From: a virus
Direction: 5' to 3' (one strand)
Length of the DNA stretch: 51,637 nucleotides
IMG/VR virus record: IMGVR_UViG_3300027759_000123
Coordinates: 1 to 51,637 of that record
Shown here: piece by piece, positions 7,649-28,955 of the stretch
How the letters are laid out: each line of letters starts with the position of its first letter
Position numbering within the stretch: position 1 is the stretch's first letter
The notes under the pieces: model-generated
Told to the model about the DNA's origin: nothing
Database searches by the model: none
What the model saw: the letters and a program-made list of their open reading frames with translations, nothing else
Made by a program: the position numbers and the translations under genes

Positions 7649-7737
7649 AGACCCTCCACTAGGGTATTGTTATCCCACTGAGTCAGCAATTCTGCTACTT
7701 GGTATTTCTCAATCGTTCATTTTATGGAGATTTGAAC

Positions 7738-8394
7738 ATGGCAAAATCAGCCGCAAAAGCCGTGGAATCCGCCACGCAAGGTTCTTTCACTTCTTTGAAA
7801 GACTCAGCCTTCCAACAAGCCGGTGCGCACCAGACCTTGGAGTCAGTCGCCCGCTTTGCTCTTACTCAGATTAAAGACTTCCCTAAAGAAGTCCCAGTCG
7901 AAGCTAAAGACCAACTGTATGAAGGTTATCGCATGAAGTTTAATGCGCTTCAGCCCGCTATTATGTATGCGGTTATCAACGATCACTACATTCGTGCCAC
8001 GCCTGAGCATATCAAGGCTGACAATGTAGAGAAGGTTGAAATTGGTATTCCATACGCTTACAGTTATTCCGCTCAGGAATTCGGTAAGTTGGCGAACACC
8101 AACCCCGCTCTCCACGCTCTTGTTAAAGAGATCAGGGAGAAGACTTCTACCTATTGCTCGAATCGACTGGGTGACTTGAAAAGAGCCGCCACGAAGATTC
8201 TGAATGAGGGTAAAGAGCGGAATCGTGGAGTCAATAAAGACTTTGCTGAATTTGTGGAAGCGTGGTTTAAAGATACCGCCCCTGACCGCCTAGTATCTGC
8301 GAAGAATCGTGGAGACAAGTCGGCTGACGACAAGCGGTTTGCTGAAGCTAAAGTCGCCTTCATGGTGAAGTGGAAACACTCCGAAGCTAAGTAA
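7738..8394 (+). CDS. Paralog 1 of a tandem duplicated phage protein family, unknown function
   Basis: ATG at 7738, behind TGGAGA, gives 218 residues. An upstream ATG at 7699 in the same frame lacks a ribosome site. The central ~120 residues ('LYEGYRM', 'YAVINDHYIRATPEHIK', 'VEKVEIGIPYAYSYS', 'QEFGKLANTNPALHAL', 'YCSNRLGDLKRA') are strongly similar to the next gene (8623-9228). The ends differ: an Ala/Lys-rich start and a basic helical C-terminus. The gene has its own leader and strong terminator, so it is probably highly and separately expressed. Abundant expression and a basic, soluble character would suit a DNA-binding or host-modifying protein, but no known domain is visible. Confidence 0.75.
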   Translation: MAKSAAKAVESATQGSFTSLKDSAFQQAGAHQTLESVARFALTQIKDFPKEVPVEAKDQLYEGYRMKFNALQPAIMYAVINDHYIRATPEHIKADNVEKVEIGIPYAYSYSAQEFGKLANTNPALHALVKEIREKTSTYCSNRLGDLKRAATKILNEGKERNRGVNKDFAEFVEAWFKDTAPDRLVSAKNRGDKSADDKRFAEAKVAFMVKWKHSEAK

Positions 8395-8445: not shown

Positions 8446-8544
8446 GCTATTTTGAAACCAGTTATTTTCTGTCGCGCGCGGGAGTGCGTGCGTGGCGTGC
8501 GAAACCCTTAAATAGTGTCCCATCCCCCCGTGGAACTTTACTTA
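8446..8544 (+). promoter_or_regulatory. Leader repeat B (two stem-loops upstream of paralog 2)
   Basis: Second copy of the leader. It begins with a 22-base stretch (8446-8467) also found exactly at 19496-19517. Then come a GC-rich stem (8473-8479 with 8484-8490, loop GGGA), AAATAGTGTCCCA, a short CCAT/GTGG stem (8520-8533) and ACTTTACTTA. Compared with leader A the arms differ in sequence but still pair, which supports RNA structure. The gene start follows 78 bases later. Confidence 0.6.
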
Positions 8545-8622
8545 ACACCCCACATCTGTCAATATACATCATCGCTTAGCAGACAACTAGGCGATGTTTC
8601 ATTAACTCTATCGGAGGACATT

Positions 8623-9228
8623 ATGTCTACCATTACATCGTTGAAGGACTTGGGCTATAAACAAGCTCAAACAGGGGACAACTTAGACAACCAAGCAGAG
8701 TATGCCTTAGTGCATATTGCAGGGTTTCCAGAGGACACCCCAAGCGAAGCAAGGGAAATGCTTTATGAGGGTTATCGGTTGCGTCACAGCGAGAGGTATC
8801 CTGCCAAGGTCTATGCTGTGGTCAATGACCATTACATTCTTGCAACACCCGAGCATGTCAAAAATGCAAAGGTTGAAAAAATTGAGGTAGGTGTGGCTTA
8901 TGCCTTCGCTTACTCTAGCCAAGAATTTGGCAAGCTCAAGAACACTAACCCTGCATTGCATGGCATCATCAAGGTGATACGTGATGATGTGGCAGATTAC
9001 TGTTCTAACCGATTGGGTGACCTTAGACGTGCCTGCAAGAAAATACTTGCAAAACGCAACGGCAACACCACAACACGCACCACATTGGATTTTGCACAAT
9101 CAATGCTCAAAGCATTTGAAGCCCAAGAAAAATCTGTAAAGGTGAAACAGGCAAAGGGTGACACAACGGCGAACAGCGCCAAGTTCGCCCTTGCCGTAAA
9201 ATCCTTTTGGATGACATACAACAAATGA
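8623..9228 (+). CDS. Paralog 2 of the tandem duplicated phage protein family, unknown function
   Basis: ATG at 8623 follows CGGAGGAC and gives 201 residues. The core ('LYEGYRLRHSERYPAKVYAV', 'NDHYILATPEHVK', 'VEKIEVGVAYAFAYSS', 'QEFGKLKNTNPALHGI', 'YCSNRLGDLRRA') is colinear with paralog 1 at roughly half identity by eye; the N-terminal ~25 residues and C-terminal ~60 have diverged. Codon choice also differs (more A-rich), so the duplication is old or one copy was acquired separately. It has its own leader (B) and terminator (9242). Function unknown; no catalytic motif is seen. Confidence 0.75.
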   Translation: MSTITSLKDLGYKQAQTGDNLDNQAEYALVHIAGFPEDTPSEAREMLYEGYRLRHSERYPAKVYAVVNDHYILATPEHVKNAKVEKIEVGVAYAFAYSSQEFGKLKNTNPALHGIIKVIRDDVADYCSNRLGDLRRACKKILAKRNGNTTTRTTLDFAQSMLKAFEAQEKSVKVKQAKGDTTANSAKFALAVKSFWMTYNK

Positions 9229-9241
9229 TGTTGTGACCCGT

Positions 9242-9275
9242 GCCCCTGATCAGAAATGATCAGGGGCTTTTTTTT
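9242..9275 (+). terminator. Rho-independent terminator
   Basis: GCCCCTGATCA pairs perfectly with TGATCAGGGGC around a GAAA tetraloop and is followed by eight T. It lies 13 bases after paralog 2 and matches the style of the terminator after paralog 1. Confidence 0.95.
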
Positions 9276-9285
9276 CGCCTGTGCT

Positions 9286-9372
9286 TTTTGAAACCAGTTA
9301 TTTTTCGACGCGCGCGAGAGGGCGCGCAATGCGTGAACAAGGAGCTTAATTAGCGTCCCACGCATGCGTGGA
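9286..9372 (+). promoter_or_regulatory. Leader repeat C (orphan copy, no gene directly downstream)
   Basis: Third copy. It has TTTTGAAACCAGTTATTTTT, a perfect GCGCGC/GCGCGC stem (9310-9315 with 9322-9327), AATTAGCGTCCCAC and a perfect 14-base palindrome CCACGCATGCGTGG (9358-9371). Unlike copies A and B it is followed by over 600 bases without a gene, including the origin-like region. It could drive a non-coding or origin-priming transcript, or mark a lost third paralog. Confidence 0.55.
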
Positions 9373-9466
9373 ATTTGCTTTGCATCGCCTACCGTTCTCA
9401 GAACTGATAGAGCTGAAAATGTGGTTGCGTCATTTACCGTTTTCTTAAATGACAGGATTGGAGTTT

Positions 9467-9805
9467 TGTTCTATTTTTTCTAGAACAAAGTACTACGTAG
9501 TGTATTGAAATAGAACAGAAAAAGTGAGTATCCATGCGGGTTGCGAGCATTCTGTTCTAATGTTCTACGGTTTTGGCAGTGTATACCCTTTTTTGAGAAA
9601 AACTGAGAGAGCAAAGGCTTCTCAGCCAATGCAAAGAAAAATCGAAAAAAGAGGAGCATATACCCTTTTTTCGTAGAACATTAGAACATCTATATATTTA
9701 TTAAATAATTAATTAATAAAAACAACAACTTAGCTAACTTTGACCCCCCATTTCTTGTTCTATAAGCATAGTTTCAAAAGTAGAACAAACCAGAACATTA
9801 GAACA
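9467..9805. other. Candidate replication origin: cluster of TAGAACA/TGTTCTA heptamers with AT-rich core
   Basis: Within 340 bases there are ten exact copies of one heptamer: TGTTCTA at 9467, 9553, 9561 and 9756; TAGAACA at 9481, 9511, 9674, 9682, 9781 and 9799; plus a one-mismatch copy at 9791. Two doublets form a 17-bp perfect inverted repeat (9553-9569 with 9672-9688). Between and beside them are a 13-base direct repeat ending in six T (9582-9594, 9659-9671), a 10-bp palindrome (9492-9501) and a very AT-rich stretch (9689-9725). Iterons plus an AT-rich unwinding zone, in a gene-free gap before the replication genes, is the classical pattern of an origin. A multi-site repressor operator is the alternative. 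Confidence 0.6.
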
Positions 9806-9868: not shown

Positions 9869-9897
9869 TTGACTCAAAGGTAAAGTTATGTTATACT
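9869..9897 (+). promoter_or_regulatory. Sigma70 promoter P1
   Basis: TTGACT, a 17-base spacer and TATACT: four or five of six matches in each box at ideal spacing. It is nearly identical to the promoter at 11740-11768, including the spacer. TTGAC and the partial GTAAA half-site overlap the -35 and could bind a regulator. It drives the genes from 10009. Confidence 0.85.
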
Positions 9898-9904
9898 GGA
9901 GTCT

Positions 9905-9958
9905 GGGTCGGGAAGTATGCAGTAAGCGACCCTAAATAGCATCCCACGCACCCGTGGG
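9905..9958 (+). promoter_or_regulatory. Tandem leader hairpins (element copy 4)
   Basis: Starting about 8 bases after the -10 box, GGGTCG (9905-9910) pairs with CGACCC (9927-9932). After CTAAATAGCAT, CCCACG (9943-9948) pairs with CGTGGG (9953-9958) around a CACC loop. Both hairpins would form at the very 5' end of the transcript. TTTTGTTTCAACCAA follows, as in copy 6. The gene starts at 10009. Confidence 0.65.
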
Positions 9959-10008
9959 TTTTGTTTCAACCAATCGGTGTCCTTTGCAGGAACCACAAGG
10001 AGATGGAA

Positions 10009-12825: not shown

Positions 12826-13968
12826 ATGGCAAAAGTACAAACAGTCGAAACAGTTTCAATCAACGAACTGCGCAGAATCATTCCCCTAATAGCTTCAGAG
12901 ATCACGCCTGTCATACAGTCCGAACCTGGCTGTGGCAAGACCTCCCTGTTAGCTATGATGGCAGAAGATAGTGGTGACAAGTGGCGCAGTCCTGCCGATG
13001 GCGTCAACATCGAAGGCGACAAGTACGACTACATCTACATCGACTGCCCTGTCAAAGATATGTCAGACATTGGCATGACTATCCCCAACCATGCGACTCA
13101 GACACTTGAGTATTATGTGTCCTCGCTCTTCAACTTGAATAGTCCAAAGCCTAAGCGTATCCTAGCTGACGAGTTCATGAAGTCACCTAAGCTTCTGCAA
13201 GTTATCTTCACTAGGTTGTTTCTTGAGCGAATGGTAGGTGACAAGCCACTGCCCAGTGGGTCACAAATCTTTGCAACATCGAACAATGCGGGTGATGGCG
13301 TGGGTGACTCCATGCTTGCTCACGCAGGTAATCGTGTTTGCATCATGCGCATGGCAAAGCCAAGTGTTAACGAGTGGCTCGAGTGGGCAGGTCAGACAGT
13401 GACAGTCGGTGACAAGGTACAGGCTCGTGTGTCACGTGTGATTCGTGCGGCAGTTGCCATGTTCCCTCGTTGCTTGGCGTCGTACACCACAGGCGATCAG
13501 AACGATAACCCATACATCTTCAAACCATCTATGAGTTCCTTATCGTTTGTGTCTCCTCGCTCGTTGGCAAAGGCGAATGTGATCGTGAACAATCGTGATG
13601 CGATCGGTGAGAACGGCACGAAGGTAGCACTAGCGGGTACTGTCGGTGCATCATTTGCGGCAGACATGGCGGCATTCATATCAATGGAGAAATCATTGAT
13701 CGATGTGAAGGACATCGTCAAGTCTCCCGAGAGCATACCCATGCCCACTGACATCAGTGCGCAGTTGATGATCATGTTTCAAGCAGTAGATGTATTGGAG
13801 ACACAAGATCAGTTGACTAAGTTCATGATGTTCGTTGAGCGTATTCCCTCATCCGAGGTACAAGGCGTGTTCTTCACAATGATGATGCGCAATACCAAGT
13901 CCATTCGCTTGGCTCGCAACAATGCCAAGATTGCTGAGTGGGCGAAGAACAATCACGAGTTGTTCTAA
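12826..13968 (+). CDS. MoxR/CobS-like AAA+ ATPase
   Basis: The 380-residue protein has Walker A 'EPGCGKTS' (33-40), Walker B 'RILADEF' (111-117), a sensor-1-like 'ATSNN' (150-154), and an 'AGNRVC' segment (about 167-172) whose Arg could be the finger. MoxR/CobS ATPases drive metal insertion or protein remodelling with a VWA partner, and a VWA gene follows 320 bases later. The start has only a weak ribosome site (AAAGAAAG). The C-terminal third is helical without a named domain. Confidence 0.85.
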   Translation: MAKVQTVETVSINELRRIIPLIASEITPVIQSEPGCGKTSLLAMMAEDSGDKWRSPADGVNIEGDKYDYIYIDCPVKDMSDIGMTIPNHATQTLEYYVSSLFNLNSPKPKRILADEFMKSPKLLQVIFTRLFLERMVGDKPLPSGSQIFATSNNAGDGVGDSMLAHAGNRVCIMRMAKPSVNEWLEWAGQTVTVGDKVQARVSRVIRAAVAMFPRCLASYTTGDQNDNPYIFKPSMSSLSFVSPRSLAKANVIVNNRDAIGENGTKVALAGTVGASFAADMAAFISMEKSLIDVKDIVKSPESIPMPTDISAQLMIMFQAVDVLETQDQLTKFMMFVERIPSSEVQGVFFTMMMRNTKSIRLARNNAKIAEWAKNNHELF

Positions 13969-14199: not shown

Positions 14200-14288
14200 T
14201 GTTAACTAGATATGAGAAGTTCGAGAGAGTAGTGTTGCTGTTAGCAATGATTGTTTTAATGTTAGATCTTTTATATTGGAGACCATGA
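14199..14288 (+). CDS. Micro-membrane protein (29 aa), tentative
   Basis: ATG at 14199 overlaps the upstream stop by one base (TGATG) behind AAGGAGG. The 29-residue product is a short basic head (MLTRYEKFERV) plus a single hydrophobic helix (VLLLAMIVLMLDLLYW). The stop overlaps the next start. Its length and lack of known homologs keep confidence low, but coupling on both sides and the ribosome site favour translation. Confidence 0.4.
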   Translation: MLTRYEKFERVVLLLAMIVLMLDLLYWRP

Positions 14289-15568
14289 TGAGCAAGCAAG
14301 AAACCCGAATCAAGCGTGGACACATCACGCTTATGAAGCACCCACAGACTGCCCTGTACTCAGGCGTAATGCTGATGGGTATCTCTGCCGTTGAGGAGAA
14401 TGTATCTACTGCATACACCGATGGTGTCAACAAGAAGTATGGTCGCAAGTTCTTGGAGAGTATCACTAGCGAAGCCAAGGTGCGTGGTCTCATCCTCCAT
14501 GAGAATCTTCACGTAGCTTTGAAGCAAGTCGTGTTCGGTCGCCCCATGTTCTTGGAGAATCCCAAGATGGCTAACCTAGCCGCTGACTTTGTTGTCAATG
14601 ACATCATTACCTGTATTGATGGGACAGTTGCGGGTACGCACGAGCGTCTAGTCGAGTTGCCTGATGGTGCTGTGTACGATGCGATGTTCCACGATTGGTC
14701 TATGCGTGAGGTATACAACTATCTCAAGAAGCATTGCAAAGGTGGCAAGGGCGGGGGCGGTAAGGGTAAGGGTCAAGGTAATCCCCCACCATCGGGTGGG
14801 ACACAATCTAACGACGATGAAGATGGTGATGGTGATACGGTAACAGTCAACGGCAAGACCTATGACATCTCTCAGTCAGACGAGCATGATTTTATCGGTA
14901 AGGAGTTGTCACCCGAGCAAGCCAAAGAAATCTTAGATGAGATCGACAAAGCATTGCGTGAAGGCGGGATGCTTGCAGGTCGCATGGGTGCAAAGATTCC
15001 TAGAGTCATCTCCGACTTGTTAGAACCCAAGATCGACTGGCGTGATGCGTTGCGTGAGTTTGTGTCTGCGTCAACCAAGGGTAACGATGAGTTCACATGG
15101 CGTCGCATGAACAAGCGTCAGATGGCTAATGACATCTACTTGCCAAGCGTGATCAACGAGAGCATTGGCGAGATCATCGTAGCCATTGACACATCAGGCT
15201 CGATAGGCGGGGCAGAGATAACCGAGTTTGCTACCGAACTGGTTTCAATTTGCGAGGTCTGTCAGCCCGAAGCGGTGCGTGTTCTTTGGTGGGATACCGA
15301 GGTGCATGGCGAACAAATCTTTCGGGACAACTACAACGACATTGCGAAGTTGCTCAAACCACTAGGCGGTGGCGGAACTCACGTCTCATGCGTCAGTGAC
15401 TACGTAGTTAAGAACAAACTTAAAGCCGAGTGTGTTCTCGTGTTCACTGACGGGTATGTAGAGAACGACATCAACTGGAAGATTACTGACCCAACTCTGT
15501 GGATGGTTACGCAGCGCCGTGACTTTGAACCGCCCATGGGTAAGAAAGTAATGTTCGGTGACGATTAA
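14288..15568 (+). CDS. VWA-domain protein with metallopeptidase-like N-terminus (DUF2201 type)
   Basis: The start is taken at 14288 because GGAG sits 6 bases before it; ATG at 14285 is too close. Of 426 residues, the N-terminal part carries 'GLILHENLHVAL' (H71, E72, H75), the HExxH-like signature of the DUF2201 putative metallopeptidase domain. A Gly/Lys-rich then acidic linker follows (about 150-200). The C-terminal VWA-like domain has the MIDAS 'DTSGS' (D301, S303, S305) and 'VFTDGYVE'. Such proteins pair with MoxR/CobS ATPases in metal-chelatase-like or remodelling complexes, fitting the neighbour at 12826. Confidence 0.8.
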   Translation: MSKQETRIKRGHITLMKHPQTALYSGVMLMGISAVEENVSTAYTDGVNKKYGRKFLESITSEAKVRGLILHENLHVALKQVVFGRPMFLENPKMANLAADFVVNDIITCIDGTVAGTHERLVELPDGAVYDAMFHDWSMREVYNYLKKHCKGGKGGGGKGKGQGNPPPSGGTQSNDDEDGDGDTVTVNGKTYDISQSDEHDFIGKELSPEQAKEILDEIDKALREGGMLAGRMGAKIPRVISDLLEPKIDWRDALREFVSASTKGNDEFTWRRMNKRQMANDIYLPSVINESIGEIIVAIDTSGSIGGAEITEFATELVSICEVCQPEAVRVLWWDTEVHGEQIFRDNYNDIAKLLKPLGGGGTHVSCVSDYVVKNKLKAECVLVFTDGYVENDINWKITDPTLWMVTQRRDFEPPMGKKVMFGDD

Positions 15569-26105: not shown

Positions 26106-28955
26106 ATGTTAAAACAATTCTACGAGAAAGCATTGCCTACGCAGGGTGTCTATTGCATAACAAGCATTGGGACTGACAAAAAGGTTTCCAATAAATTTGC
26201 CGAGACACTTGATGGCGTATTTGAACAAATTGAGAAGTTCAAATCAAAACAGCTGAACACATTCGTTGCACTAGGGACGTTCGACGGATACAGCAGGAAA
26301 GCAGATGACTGCCTCTTCATGCGATCATTCTTCATTGACTTAGATGTCGGTGCAGATAAAGACTATCAATCAAAGGGCGACGCACACACGGCGCTCTACA
26401 AACTAGTTGGGGAGACTGGGCTACCTGACCCAGTGGTGATTGACTCAGGTGGCGGGGTTCACGCCTACTGGATCATGGATGAGGACATCCCCAAAGATAT
26501 CTGGAAGCCAGCCGCAGAGATATTTAAAACTATCTGTCTTGAACACATTGCAATTGATCCAGTGGTTACAGCAGATGCCGCCCGTATCATGCGCGCACCT
26601 GAGACGTTTAATCACAAGTTTGATCCACCAGAGCCAACATCAGTTGTCAGCGATGAGATTCATGTCTATAGCTGGATGGAGTTCAAATCATTTTTGTACG
26701 GTGATCTAGACGAGATCATACAAAGTCCACGATCACAAGAGTCAGAAGATATTCTTGGAAGTATTACCAAAGGTATTGATGAAGACACCAAAGCAATTCT
26801 AAAACTAGACAACTTTGCAAAATCATTTGAGGTACTGGCGCAAAAGAGTGTTGATGATGAAGGTGGTTGCGAACAAATTAAATACTCGCTGTTCAACGCT
26901 AAAACTCTTGATAACCCGATGTGGCATGCAGTCATATCCATAGCCAAGTTTTGTGATGATGGCGCTACCGCAATTCACGATATATCTAAAGAATACCCAG
27001 GATACACATATGAAGAAACAGAAAAAGTTGCAGCTCGCGCTCCGGCTCCAAGAACCTGCGAGTGGTTCATCGATAACTACCCAAGCCGTTGCGAGGGATG
27101 CCAGCACAGAGGAAGGATCACAAGTCCAATTGTGTTGGGTAAGCAATTCAAACCAGCCCCTACGCCAAATAAAGAGGACGCAGTTTGGGAAGTCCCGAAT
27201 ACCCAAAAAGTTCCTGATTTCCCAGACTACCTCTACCCCTACGTCCGAGGAGTAAACGGAGGCATATACTTTGTTCCCCCCGCCAAAGTTGACAAGAAGG
27301 GCGCTAAGCATCAGGATGATCCAATCCTCATTCTATCGAGCGACCTCTACCCACTGACACGCATGATCAGCCCACATGATGGCGAGTGCTTGCAGATGCG
27401 CTATGAGTTACCCCACGACGGATTCCGTGACTTCTTGCTTCCAATGAAGAGCGTCTATGCCAAGGAAGCATTCAAAGCGATCACGACCAGCAACGGCGTA
27501 TTGTTTGCATCAGTAAATGACCAACACCTTATGAACTACATCATCAAATGGGGGCAGTACCTCCAGACAACTGACAAGGCGCTACAGATGCGCATGCAGA
27601 TGGGATGGACAGAAGAACGCACATCTGATAACGATAACTGGGACAAACGCAGTTTCGTTATTGGCAAGAAAGAGTACACGCTATCAGGTGAAGTTCTTGA
27701 TGCGCCATCATCTCCGTGGGTTCGTGGGTTGTCTAGGCATCTCACACAAGCTGGCACGTTTGCGCGTTGGCGTGAGTCGATGGACTATTTAAACAAGCCA
27801 GAGTTTGAACTGCATGCCTTTGCTTCTATGTGCGGGTTTGGTTCTCCGCTGATGCCATATACGTCAACTTCAGGCGTGACTGTGAGCCTTACTGGGCGCT
27901 CTGGCAATGCCAAGACGGGCGCTATGTATGCGGGGCTAAGCATCTTTGGGCATCCTAAAGACTTGAGCATTGTGAGGGCTACCGACAACGGCTTGACTGG
28001 TCGTTACCTTGGTTTGCACAGCATTTTGTTTGGGCTTGATGAAGTCGGCGACAAGGATCCTAAAGAGTTGGGCAAGTTGATCCACGACATATCAAACGGC
28101 AAAGCCAAGGTTCGCATGCAAGGTTCAGTCAACGCTGAACGTGAGTACGAGATGTCTGCGTCGCTAATTGCTATGCTAACTAACAACCACTCTGTCTACG
28201 GTAAGCTTGACTCTCTGAAGGCTAGCCCCGATGGTGAAGCGGCTCGTGTGATTGAGTTCTTAATCCATAGACCCGAACTGCTCAATAAAGAGGGCAGGCT
28301 TGGTAAATACATCTTTGACGCATTTCGCTTTAACTACGGACATGCAGGCCCGATGTACATCAAAGAAGTTCTGCGTGGCGGTGACAACTATGTGCTAGAC
28401 CACATAGCCAAATGGGATGAGAGGTTTGAGAAAGACTTTGGCATCTACGCTGAGTATCGTTTCTATCAAAACTTGATTGGCGCGGCATTTGGTGGTGGCT
28501 CCATTGCCAACGAACATAACGTCACGGGCTACGAACTTGAACGCATTTATCATCGTACTGTGTTGGCAATGATTGAGATCAGGGACAATGTTGTGAAGGT
28601 TAACCGCACAGACTACCCCTCTTTGCTTGGCGACTTCATCAACAAGAACATGGGCAACATACTTGTGCTTAAAGATGGCAAGGTCACGATGGAACCCAGG
28701 GGCCAGCTAGTAGGGCGCATCGTCAGTGAAGAAGGTCTCTTGCAAGTGTCTAAGACTGAGTTCAAGAAGTTTTTGTCAGAGCGGCAAGTCAGCTTACGTG
28801 AGTTTGAGTTTGATATGCGGGAGAAGAAGATTCTCGTAGACGATAAGAAGGGACGCCTTACTACCGGATGGAAGTCAGCAATCAGCGTTGATCCTGCATA
28901 TCTCTATTGGTTCAAGACTGAGATTCCAAGCGAACTGTTTGATGAATCCAAGTGA
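26106..28955 (+). CDS. Primase-helicase (AEP/PrimPol-like N-terminus, SF3-like helicase C-terminus)
   Basis: The 949-residue protein has an N-terminal primase-polymerase-like part: 'FFIDLDVG' (D78, D80) and 'SGGGVHAYW' (H119) match the DxD and sxH motifs of archaeo-eukaryotic primases. Next is a Cys region ('CEWFIDNYPSRCEGC', ~ residues 318-332) that may bind zinc. The C-terminal ATPase has Walker A-like 'GRSGNAKTG' (~597-605) and Walker B 'ILFGLDEVGD' (~640), as in D5/DUF927-type helicases. This enzyme would prime and unwind at the origin. ATG at 26106 behind GGCGAG. Confidence 0.85.
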   Translation: MLKQFYEKALPTQGVYCITSIGTDKKVSNKFAETLDGVFEQIEKFKSKQLNTFVALGTFDGYSRKADDCLFMRSFFIDLDVGADKDYQSKGDAHTALYKLVGETGLPDPVVIDSGGGVHAYWIMDEDIPKDIWKPAAEIFKTICLEHIAIDPVVTADAARIMRAPETFNHKFDPPEPTSVVSDEIHVYSWMEFKSFLYGDLDEIIQSPRSQESEDILGSITKGIDEDTKAILKLDNFAKSFEVLAQKSVDDEGGCEQIKYSLFNAKTLDNPMWHAVISIAKFCDDGATAIHDISKEYPGYTYEETEKVAARAPAPRTCEWFIDNYPSRCEGCQHRGRITSPIVLGKQFKPAPTPNKEDAVWEVPNTQKVPDFPDYLYPYVRGVNGGIYFVPPAKVDKKGAKHQDDPILILSSDLYPLTRMISPHDGECLQMRYELPHDGFRDFLLPMKSVYAKEAFKAITTSNGVLFASVNDQHLMNYIIKWGQYLQTTDKALQMRMQMGWTEERTSDNDNWDKRSFVIGKKEYTLSGEVLDAPSSPWVRGLSRHLTQAGTFARWRESMDYLNKPEFELHAFASMCGFGSPLMPYTSTSGVTVSLTGRSGNAKTGAMYAGLSIFGHPKDLSIVRATDNGLTGRYLGLHSILFGLDEVGDKDPKELGKLIHDISNGKAKVRMQGSVNAEREYEMSASLIAMLTNNHSVYGKLDSLKASPDGEAARVIEFLIHRPELLNKEGRLGKYIFDAFRFNYGHAGPMYIKEVLRGGDNYVLDHIAKWDERFEKDFGIYAEYRFYQNLIGAAFGGGSIANEHNVTGYELERIYHRTVLAMIEIRDNVVKVNRTDYPSLLGDFINKNMGNILVLKDGKVTMEPRGQLVGRIVSEEGLLQVSKTEFKKFLSERQVSLREFEFDMREKKILVDDKKGRLTTGWKSAISVDPAYLYWFKTEIPSELFDESK

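Follow-up and report, generated by a model that had tools for sequence, protein, structure and literature searches.

For most environmental phages the replication origins are unknown, and the window analysed here (the whole stretch of 51,637 b, an IMG/VR virus record without end repeats) raises the question of whether such an origin can be recognized in a cluster of TAGAACA heptamers, and which protein would act on it. The cluster had originally been predicted to be a candidate replication origin bound by a primase-helicase.

Results

The heptamer cluster and its surroundings

The window derives from a tailed phage. To the left of the cluster it encodes a portal protein and a large terminase, and to the right a DNA polymerase I, a RecB-like exonuclease, an SNF2-like helicase and a PrimPol-DUF927 protein. 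The cluster lies in a non-coding gap between the gene end at 9228 and an operon start near 9990. It comprises ten exact heptamers, and the following elements were located in and around it:

9242–9267, plus strand: terminator-like hairpin, separating the gap from the leftward gene
9467–9517: left outer TAGAACA heptamers (9467 minus, 9481 plus, 9511 plus)
9553–9567, minus strand: inner left doublet, TAGAACA twice with an 8-b step (9553, 9561); a spacing of 8–9 b is also seen in relatives with other words
9568–9673: core between the inner doublets, containing both copies of TATACCCTTTTTT
9674–9688, plus strand: inner right doublet (9674, 9682), inverted relative to the left doublet
9689–9732: AT-rich tract, proposed unwinding element, ending in AACAACAACTTA (9721–9732); found right of the doublet in relatives too
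9756–9805: right outer array (9756 minus, 9781 plus, 9791 plus [CAGAACA, one mismatch], 9799 plus)
9869–9897, plus strand: sigma-70-like promoter TTGACT-17-TATACT of the rightward operon
Sequences: TAGAACA doublet, TAGAACATTAGAACA; contrast sequence, TGGAACATTGGAACA

The original prediction described the anatomy of this gap correctly. All ten heptamers were recovered in both orientations, the location is gene-free, and the 17-bp inverted repeat (9553–9569/9672–9688, exact) and the 13-base direct repeat TATACCCTTTTTT (9582–9594 and 9659–9671) were both located exactly. In the predicted AT-rich zone, the AT content over 50 b rises to 0.88, the highest in the window, for 50-mers that start at 9676–9691, immediately to the right of the inner right doublet. 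The AT tract is flanked by the right doublet and the right array, and the left array mirrors them. An eleventh site, CAGAACA at 9791–9797, deviates by one mismatch and forms with the heptamer at 9799 a third doublet, again with an 8-b step.

When we counted non-simple 7-mers, the window reached a maximum of 10 copies per 345 b versus 3–4 in each of 200 dinucleotide shuffles. In the whole window TAGAACA occurs 15 times (7.3 expected from shuffles), and the five copies outside the cluster are near chance and not grouped. The heptamer forms no other cluster in the window, in agreement with the original observation. Cumulative GC skew, which had been suggested as a check, was calculated and proved uninformative; its minimum (5776) and maximum (29009) track gene orientation. 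A DNA similarity search of the gap against named phages gave no match, and no RNA family scored above the gathering threshold in the gap.

Two similar elements (TAGCRTCCCACGCA..CGTGG) were observed at 9351–9385 and 9937–9970. They resemble terminator or regulator hairpins, and the second sits just downstream of the promoter-like site. The genes at 7699–8394 and 8515–9228, which adjoin the cluster, are paralogues of each other; their family occurs in most relatives, where it is often duplicated, and neither of them matched any entry in Pfam, PHROG or PDB. To the right, an AAA ATPase (phrog_1297, 12826–13968) and a DUF2201 metallopeptidase/VWA-like protein (14276–15568) form a conserved pair; the latter carries an HNH endonuclease label from PHROG, not from Pfam.

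Conservation of the cluster in relatives

Loci of relatives were collected via the ATPase, metallopeptidase and PrimPol proteins and were scanned by an unbiased search for clustered 7-mers. Forty-two loci extend at least 6 kb beyond the ATPase gene on its upstream side. A repeated word was found at the same place in 41 of them, always 2.0–4.5 kb upstream of this gene. At least seven copies were present in 30 of the 42 loci and at least five in 36, and five more loci carried four copies at 3.1–3.5 kb. Only one locus (L133) lacked a cluster at this position. Outside these clusters, 3.73 Mb of relatives' sequence contained no second cluster of at least seven copies except in phage KPP25, and this exception turned out to be the KPP25 counterpart of the cluster, which simple repeats had masked. 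No clear clusters were detected in Rhizobium phage RHph_TM3_14A and Pseudomonas phage Rollin.

The expectation that the same cluster recurs in related phages was borne out for its architecture and not for its letters. Exact TAGAACA is absent in many relatives, where a different heptamer takes its place in an unchanged layout. The words of the different lineages include TAGAACA, TGGAACA, TTGAACA, CAGAACA, CGGAACA, TGGAATT, GTGAACT, CCGCACA, TGACACA, GYTTGCA and others. Constant, in contrast, is the layout: an inner doublet on the minus strand, a core of about 100–130 b, an inner doublet on the plus strand, outer arrays and an AT tract. This tract lies right of the right doublet and often ends in ACTTA. 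The doublets keep steps of 8–9 b whatever the word; the equal 8-base spacing in the window had originally been taken to suggest a bound protein. As the layout is kept while the letters drift, the sites presumably matter through a protein that changes along with them, and what is conserved appears to be the layout and a coevolving binder rather than the letters.

Two further observations concern individual elements. The AACAACAACTTA motif after the AT tract and a core block (within 9568–9673) resembling CTTNTTTTTCGCAGTGCAA recur in distant relatives, and they are possibly a primer start or a second protein site. In two related phages (L286, L287), the main cluster upstream of the ATPase gene consists of GCGGACACGGCGAGCA units in 18-b steps (L286, 2223–2455). 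This tandem array is the sole array found there, and we rejected it as an instance of the same cluster, for it is a different kind of repeat.

The PrimPol-DUF927 protein as proposed initiator

The original prediction had guessed at the primase-helicase as the binder. The corresponding gene lies 16 kb from the cluster:

26106–28955, plus strand: proposed initiator, PrimPol – DUF927 helicase – C-terminal winged helix, 949 aa
28614–28952, plus strand: C-terminal domain (residues 837–949), proposed iteron-binding winged helix
28899–28901, plus strand: codon of Tyr932, the residue that tracks the TAGAACA/TGGAACA switch

In profile searches the 949-aa protein matched SCCmec Cch (8e-19) and a SaPI protein (5e-14). 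Its predicted model (mean pLDDT 85.5) gave fold matches to 5dgk (5e-21), 8tch, the SaPIbov1 initiator (9e-17), and the PrimPol of phage S-2L (3e-7), so that over the helicase module it resembles Cch and SaPIbov1 Rep in both sequence and fold. The model of the C-terminal domain resembles Cch and TcpK, with weak fold matches (E 0.007 and 0.08). In SaPI Rep it is the C-terminal domain that recognizes the iterons (PMC7581432).

Relatives of this protein (40–46% identity) were also seen on three contigs of metagenome-assembled genomes labelled Alphaproteobacteria, Legionella and Flavobacteriaceae (L396, L397 and L398), which are probably binned phage contigs. We did not adopt a host assignment from these mutually contradictory labels.

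Covariation of residue 932 with the repeated word

We compared 19 TAGAACA genomes with 15 TGGAACA genomes over 949 columns of the protein. Here, residue 932 was the sole column that fully separated the two groups: Tyr was present in 19/19 TAGAACA genomes and in 0/15 TGGAACA genomes, which carry His, Asn, Arg, Ser, Trp or Met. In the model this residue falls in the final strand of the predicted wing, and the neighbouring residue 931 ranks third among all columns. On a tree made without the C-terminal domain the word switches at least 3–4 times, and residue 932 goes along in 3/3 independent pairs. The sign test on these independent switches alone is not significant (p 0.25), and with only 3–4 switches it cannot become so. 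Among about 3,870 columns of 13 control proteins that were sampled adequately, none separated the groups perfectly. Such columns were seen in two poorly sampled controls, one in 17169 (9 versus 9 genomes) and two in 24370 (15 versus 5 genomes). No column of either paralogue adjoining the cluster follows the motif.

In a further set of genomes we determined residue 932 first and retrieved the clusters only afterwards; five of these genomes yielded a word. Four carry Asn932 and form a clade with CAGAACA, one of them having CGGAACA as well; the fifth carries Ser932 and has GAGAACA. Neither Tyr932 nor TAGAACA occurs among these five genomes, which is consistent with the relation. Tyr932 was also found in two TGGAATT genomes. 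A simple code in which Tyr932 reads the A at position 2 is ruled out by the CAGAACA and GAGAACA genomes that lack Tyr, and the relation of residue 932 to the word is no universal one-residue-one-base code.

Taken together, homology and the covariation of residue 932 point to the PrimPol-DUF927 protein as the best candidate binder, in agreement with the original guess, and the repeats and this protein appear to change together in evolution.

Discussion

The gap combines clustered short non-coding repeats with an adjacent AT-rich region, two features of iteron-type origins. We consider it quite likely that the cluster is the iteron-type replication origin of the phage and that its heptamers are bound by the winged helix of the PrimPol-DUF927 protein. 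The original assignment as a candidate origin is well supported, although not proven: judged from sequence, the position and layout of the cluster are shared throughout a large family of phages. According to the mechanism we propose, the C-terminal winged helix of the initiator would bind the heptamers, and the two oppositely oriented arrays would load two helicase rings that face each other around the core. The AT-rich tract beside the right doublet would melt, the same protein would unwind the DNA and prime synthesis with its PrimPol domain, and forks would depart in both directions.

According to the main rival, the heptamers serve a phage transcription regulator as operators from which it governs the rightward early operon. 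Repeated operators are possible for phage regulators, and the cluster does lie upstream of a promoter-like site and an operon. However, no heptamer overlaps this promoter, the last one being located 64 b upstream of the −35 box, and the five copies in the rest of the window are near chance rather than scattered operator sites. Moreover, operators would account for neither the AT tract nor the inverted doublets, and the covariation points to the initiator, whereas no small regulator candidate covaries. We therefore regard an operator function as quite unlikely. Covariation also bears on the idea that another phage protein binds the sites and loads the helicase in the manner of lambda O. The paralogue pair (7699–8394, 8515–9228) would be an example of such a protein, since it adjoins the cluster and most relatives encode members of its family, which has no match among known families. 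Yet it is the C-terminus of the PrimPol-DUF927 protein, and neither of the paralogues, that contains a motif-following column, and homologues of this protein bind their own iterons, which makes a separate binder unlikely.

Partition (centromere-like) and packaging sites are likewise clustered repeats, but a function of this kind seems highly improbable. No ParA/ParB family was recognized among the scanned proteins, the terminase gene belongs to a different operon about 4 kb away, and both the AT-rich element and the connection with the initiator are in keeping with replication.

If the origin reading is correct, the constant layout with its drifting word makes the origin of a phage family findable by computer and names its initiator. 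The dozen repeat words, many of them paired with the initiator sequence of their own genome, provide material for studying how such helicases read DNA. More tentatively, these phages may represent a large tailed-phage family with a PICI-like bipartite origin, in which the word switches repeatedly together with the beta-wing of the initiator. They would then form a natural series of mutually incompatible origin–initiator pairs, for which satellites or co-infecting relatives might have selected.

Comparison with known systems

In lambda-type origins the iterons are located inside the initiator gene O, whereas the cluster described here occupies a gene-free gap with the proposed initiator 16 kb away. 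TcpK, which acts on the oriT of pCW3 (PDB 5vfx), shares a similar winged-helix fold and binds tandem 9-nt boxes via its beta-wing (PMC6137059), but it is an accessory protein of conjugation and not an initiator, so that the likeness (E 0.08) is one of fold only.

Closer in layout is Kochitakasuvirus KPP25 (L231 1220–1895, record 26219–26894), in which a gene-free gap before a rightward operon contains repeated TCGTAACA and inverted doublets 8–9 b apart around a core. Its PrimPol, however, is of the NrS-1/DUF5906 kind and the AT-rich part lies inside the core. In KPP25-like Pseudomonas phages, copies of the unit TCGTAACACGCTGGAGCC are also present at several genomic sites outside this gap, and because of this recurrence KPP25 is weaker evidence.

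Cch of SCCmec (Cch/Cch2; PDB 5dgk; PMC7581432) is the best structural and profile match of the proposed initiator, and the C-terminal domain of Cch2 binds direct repeats (PMC7581432). For SCCmec, replication in vivo is unproven and there are three iterons only.

The alpha protein of satellite phage P4 binds iterons. Like the initiator proposed here, to which we likened it by description, it is a fused primase–helicase initiator (PMC7145576). P4 has a second site, crr, and no second cluster equivalent to it was found here.

In PICI origins, two iteron sets flank an AT-rich region, and this two-array plan has been held to be unique to PICIs (PMC6092414). Judging from layout and homology, the phage family described here is a further case of the plan, with a homologous initiator. 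The SaPI/PICI systems with Rep (SaPIbov1 Rep, PDB 8tch; PMC7581432, PMC6092414) have in common with it two sets of iterons next to or surrounding an AT-rich region and a DUF927-kind initiator helicase with a C-terminal DNA-binding domain. In contrast, the PICI origin lies directly 3' of the rep gene, whereas here the proposed origin precedes the early operon, and PICIs are phage satellites, whereas the family described here consists of tailed phages of 60–66 kb, with relatives' records reaching 60–67 kb. In addition, here the primase is fused to the initiator, and the inverted inner doublets around a conserved core are characteristic. The proposed origin falls outside a strict definition of PICI origins, because the initiator gene lies at a distance of 16 kb and the phage has its own terminase and portal. 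By analogy, it would nevertheless work like the SaPI/PICI and P4 origins, and, together with the homology of the initiators, the very similar layout would connect full-sized phages with phage satellites.
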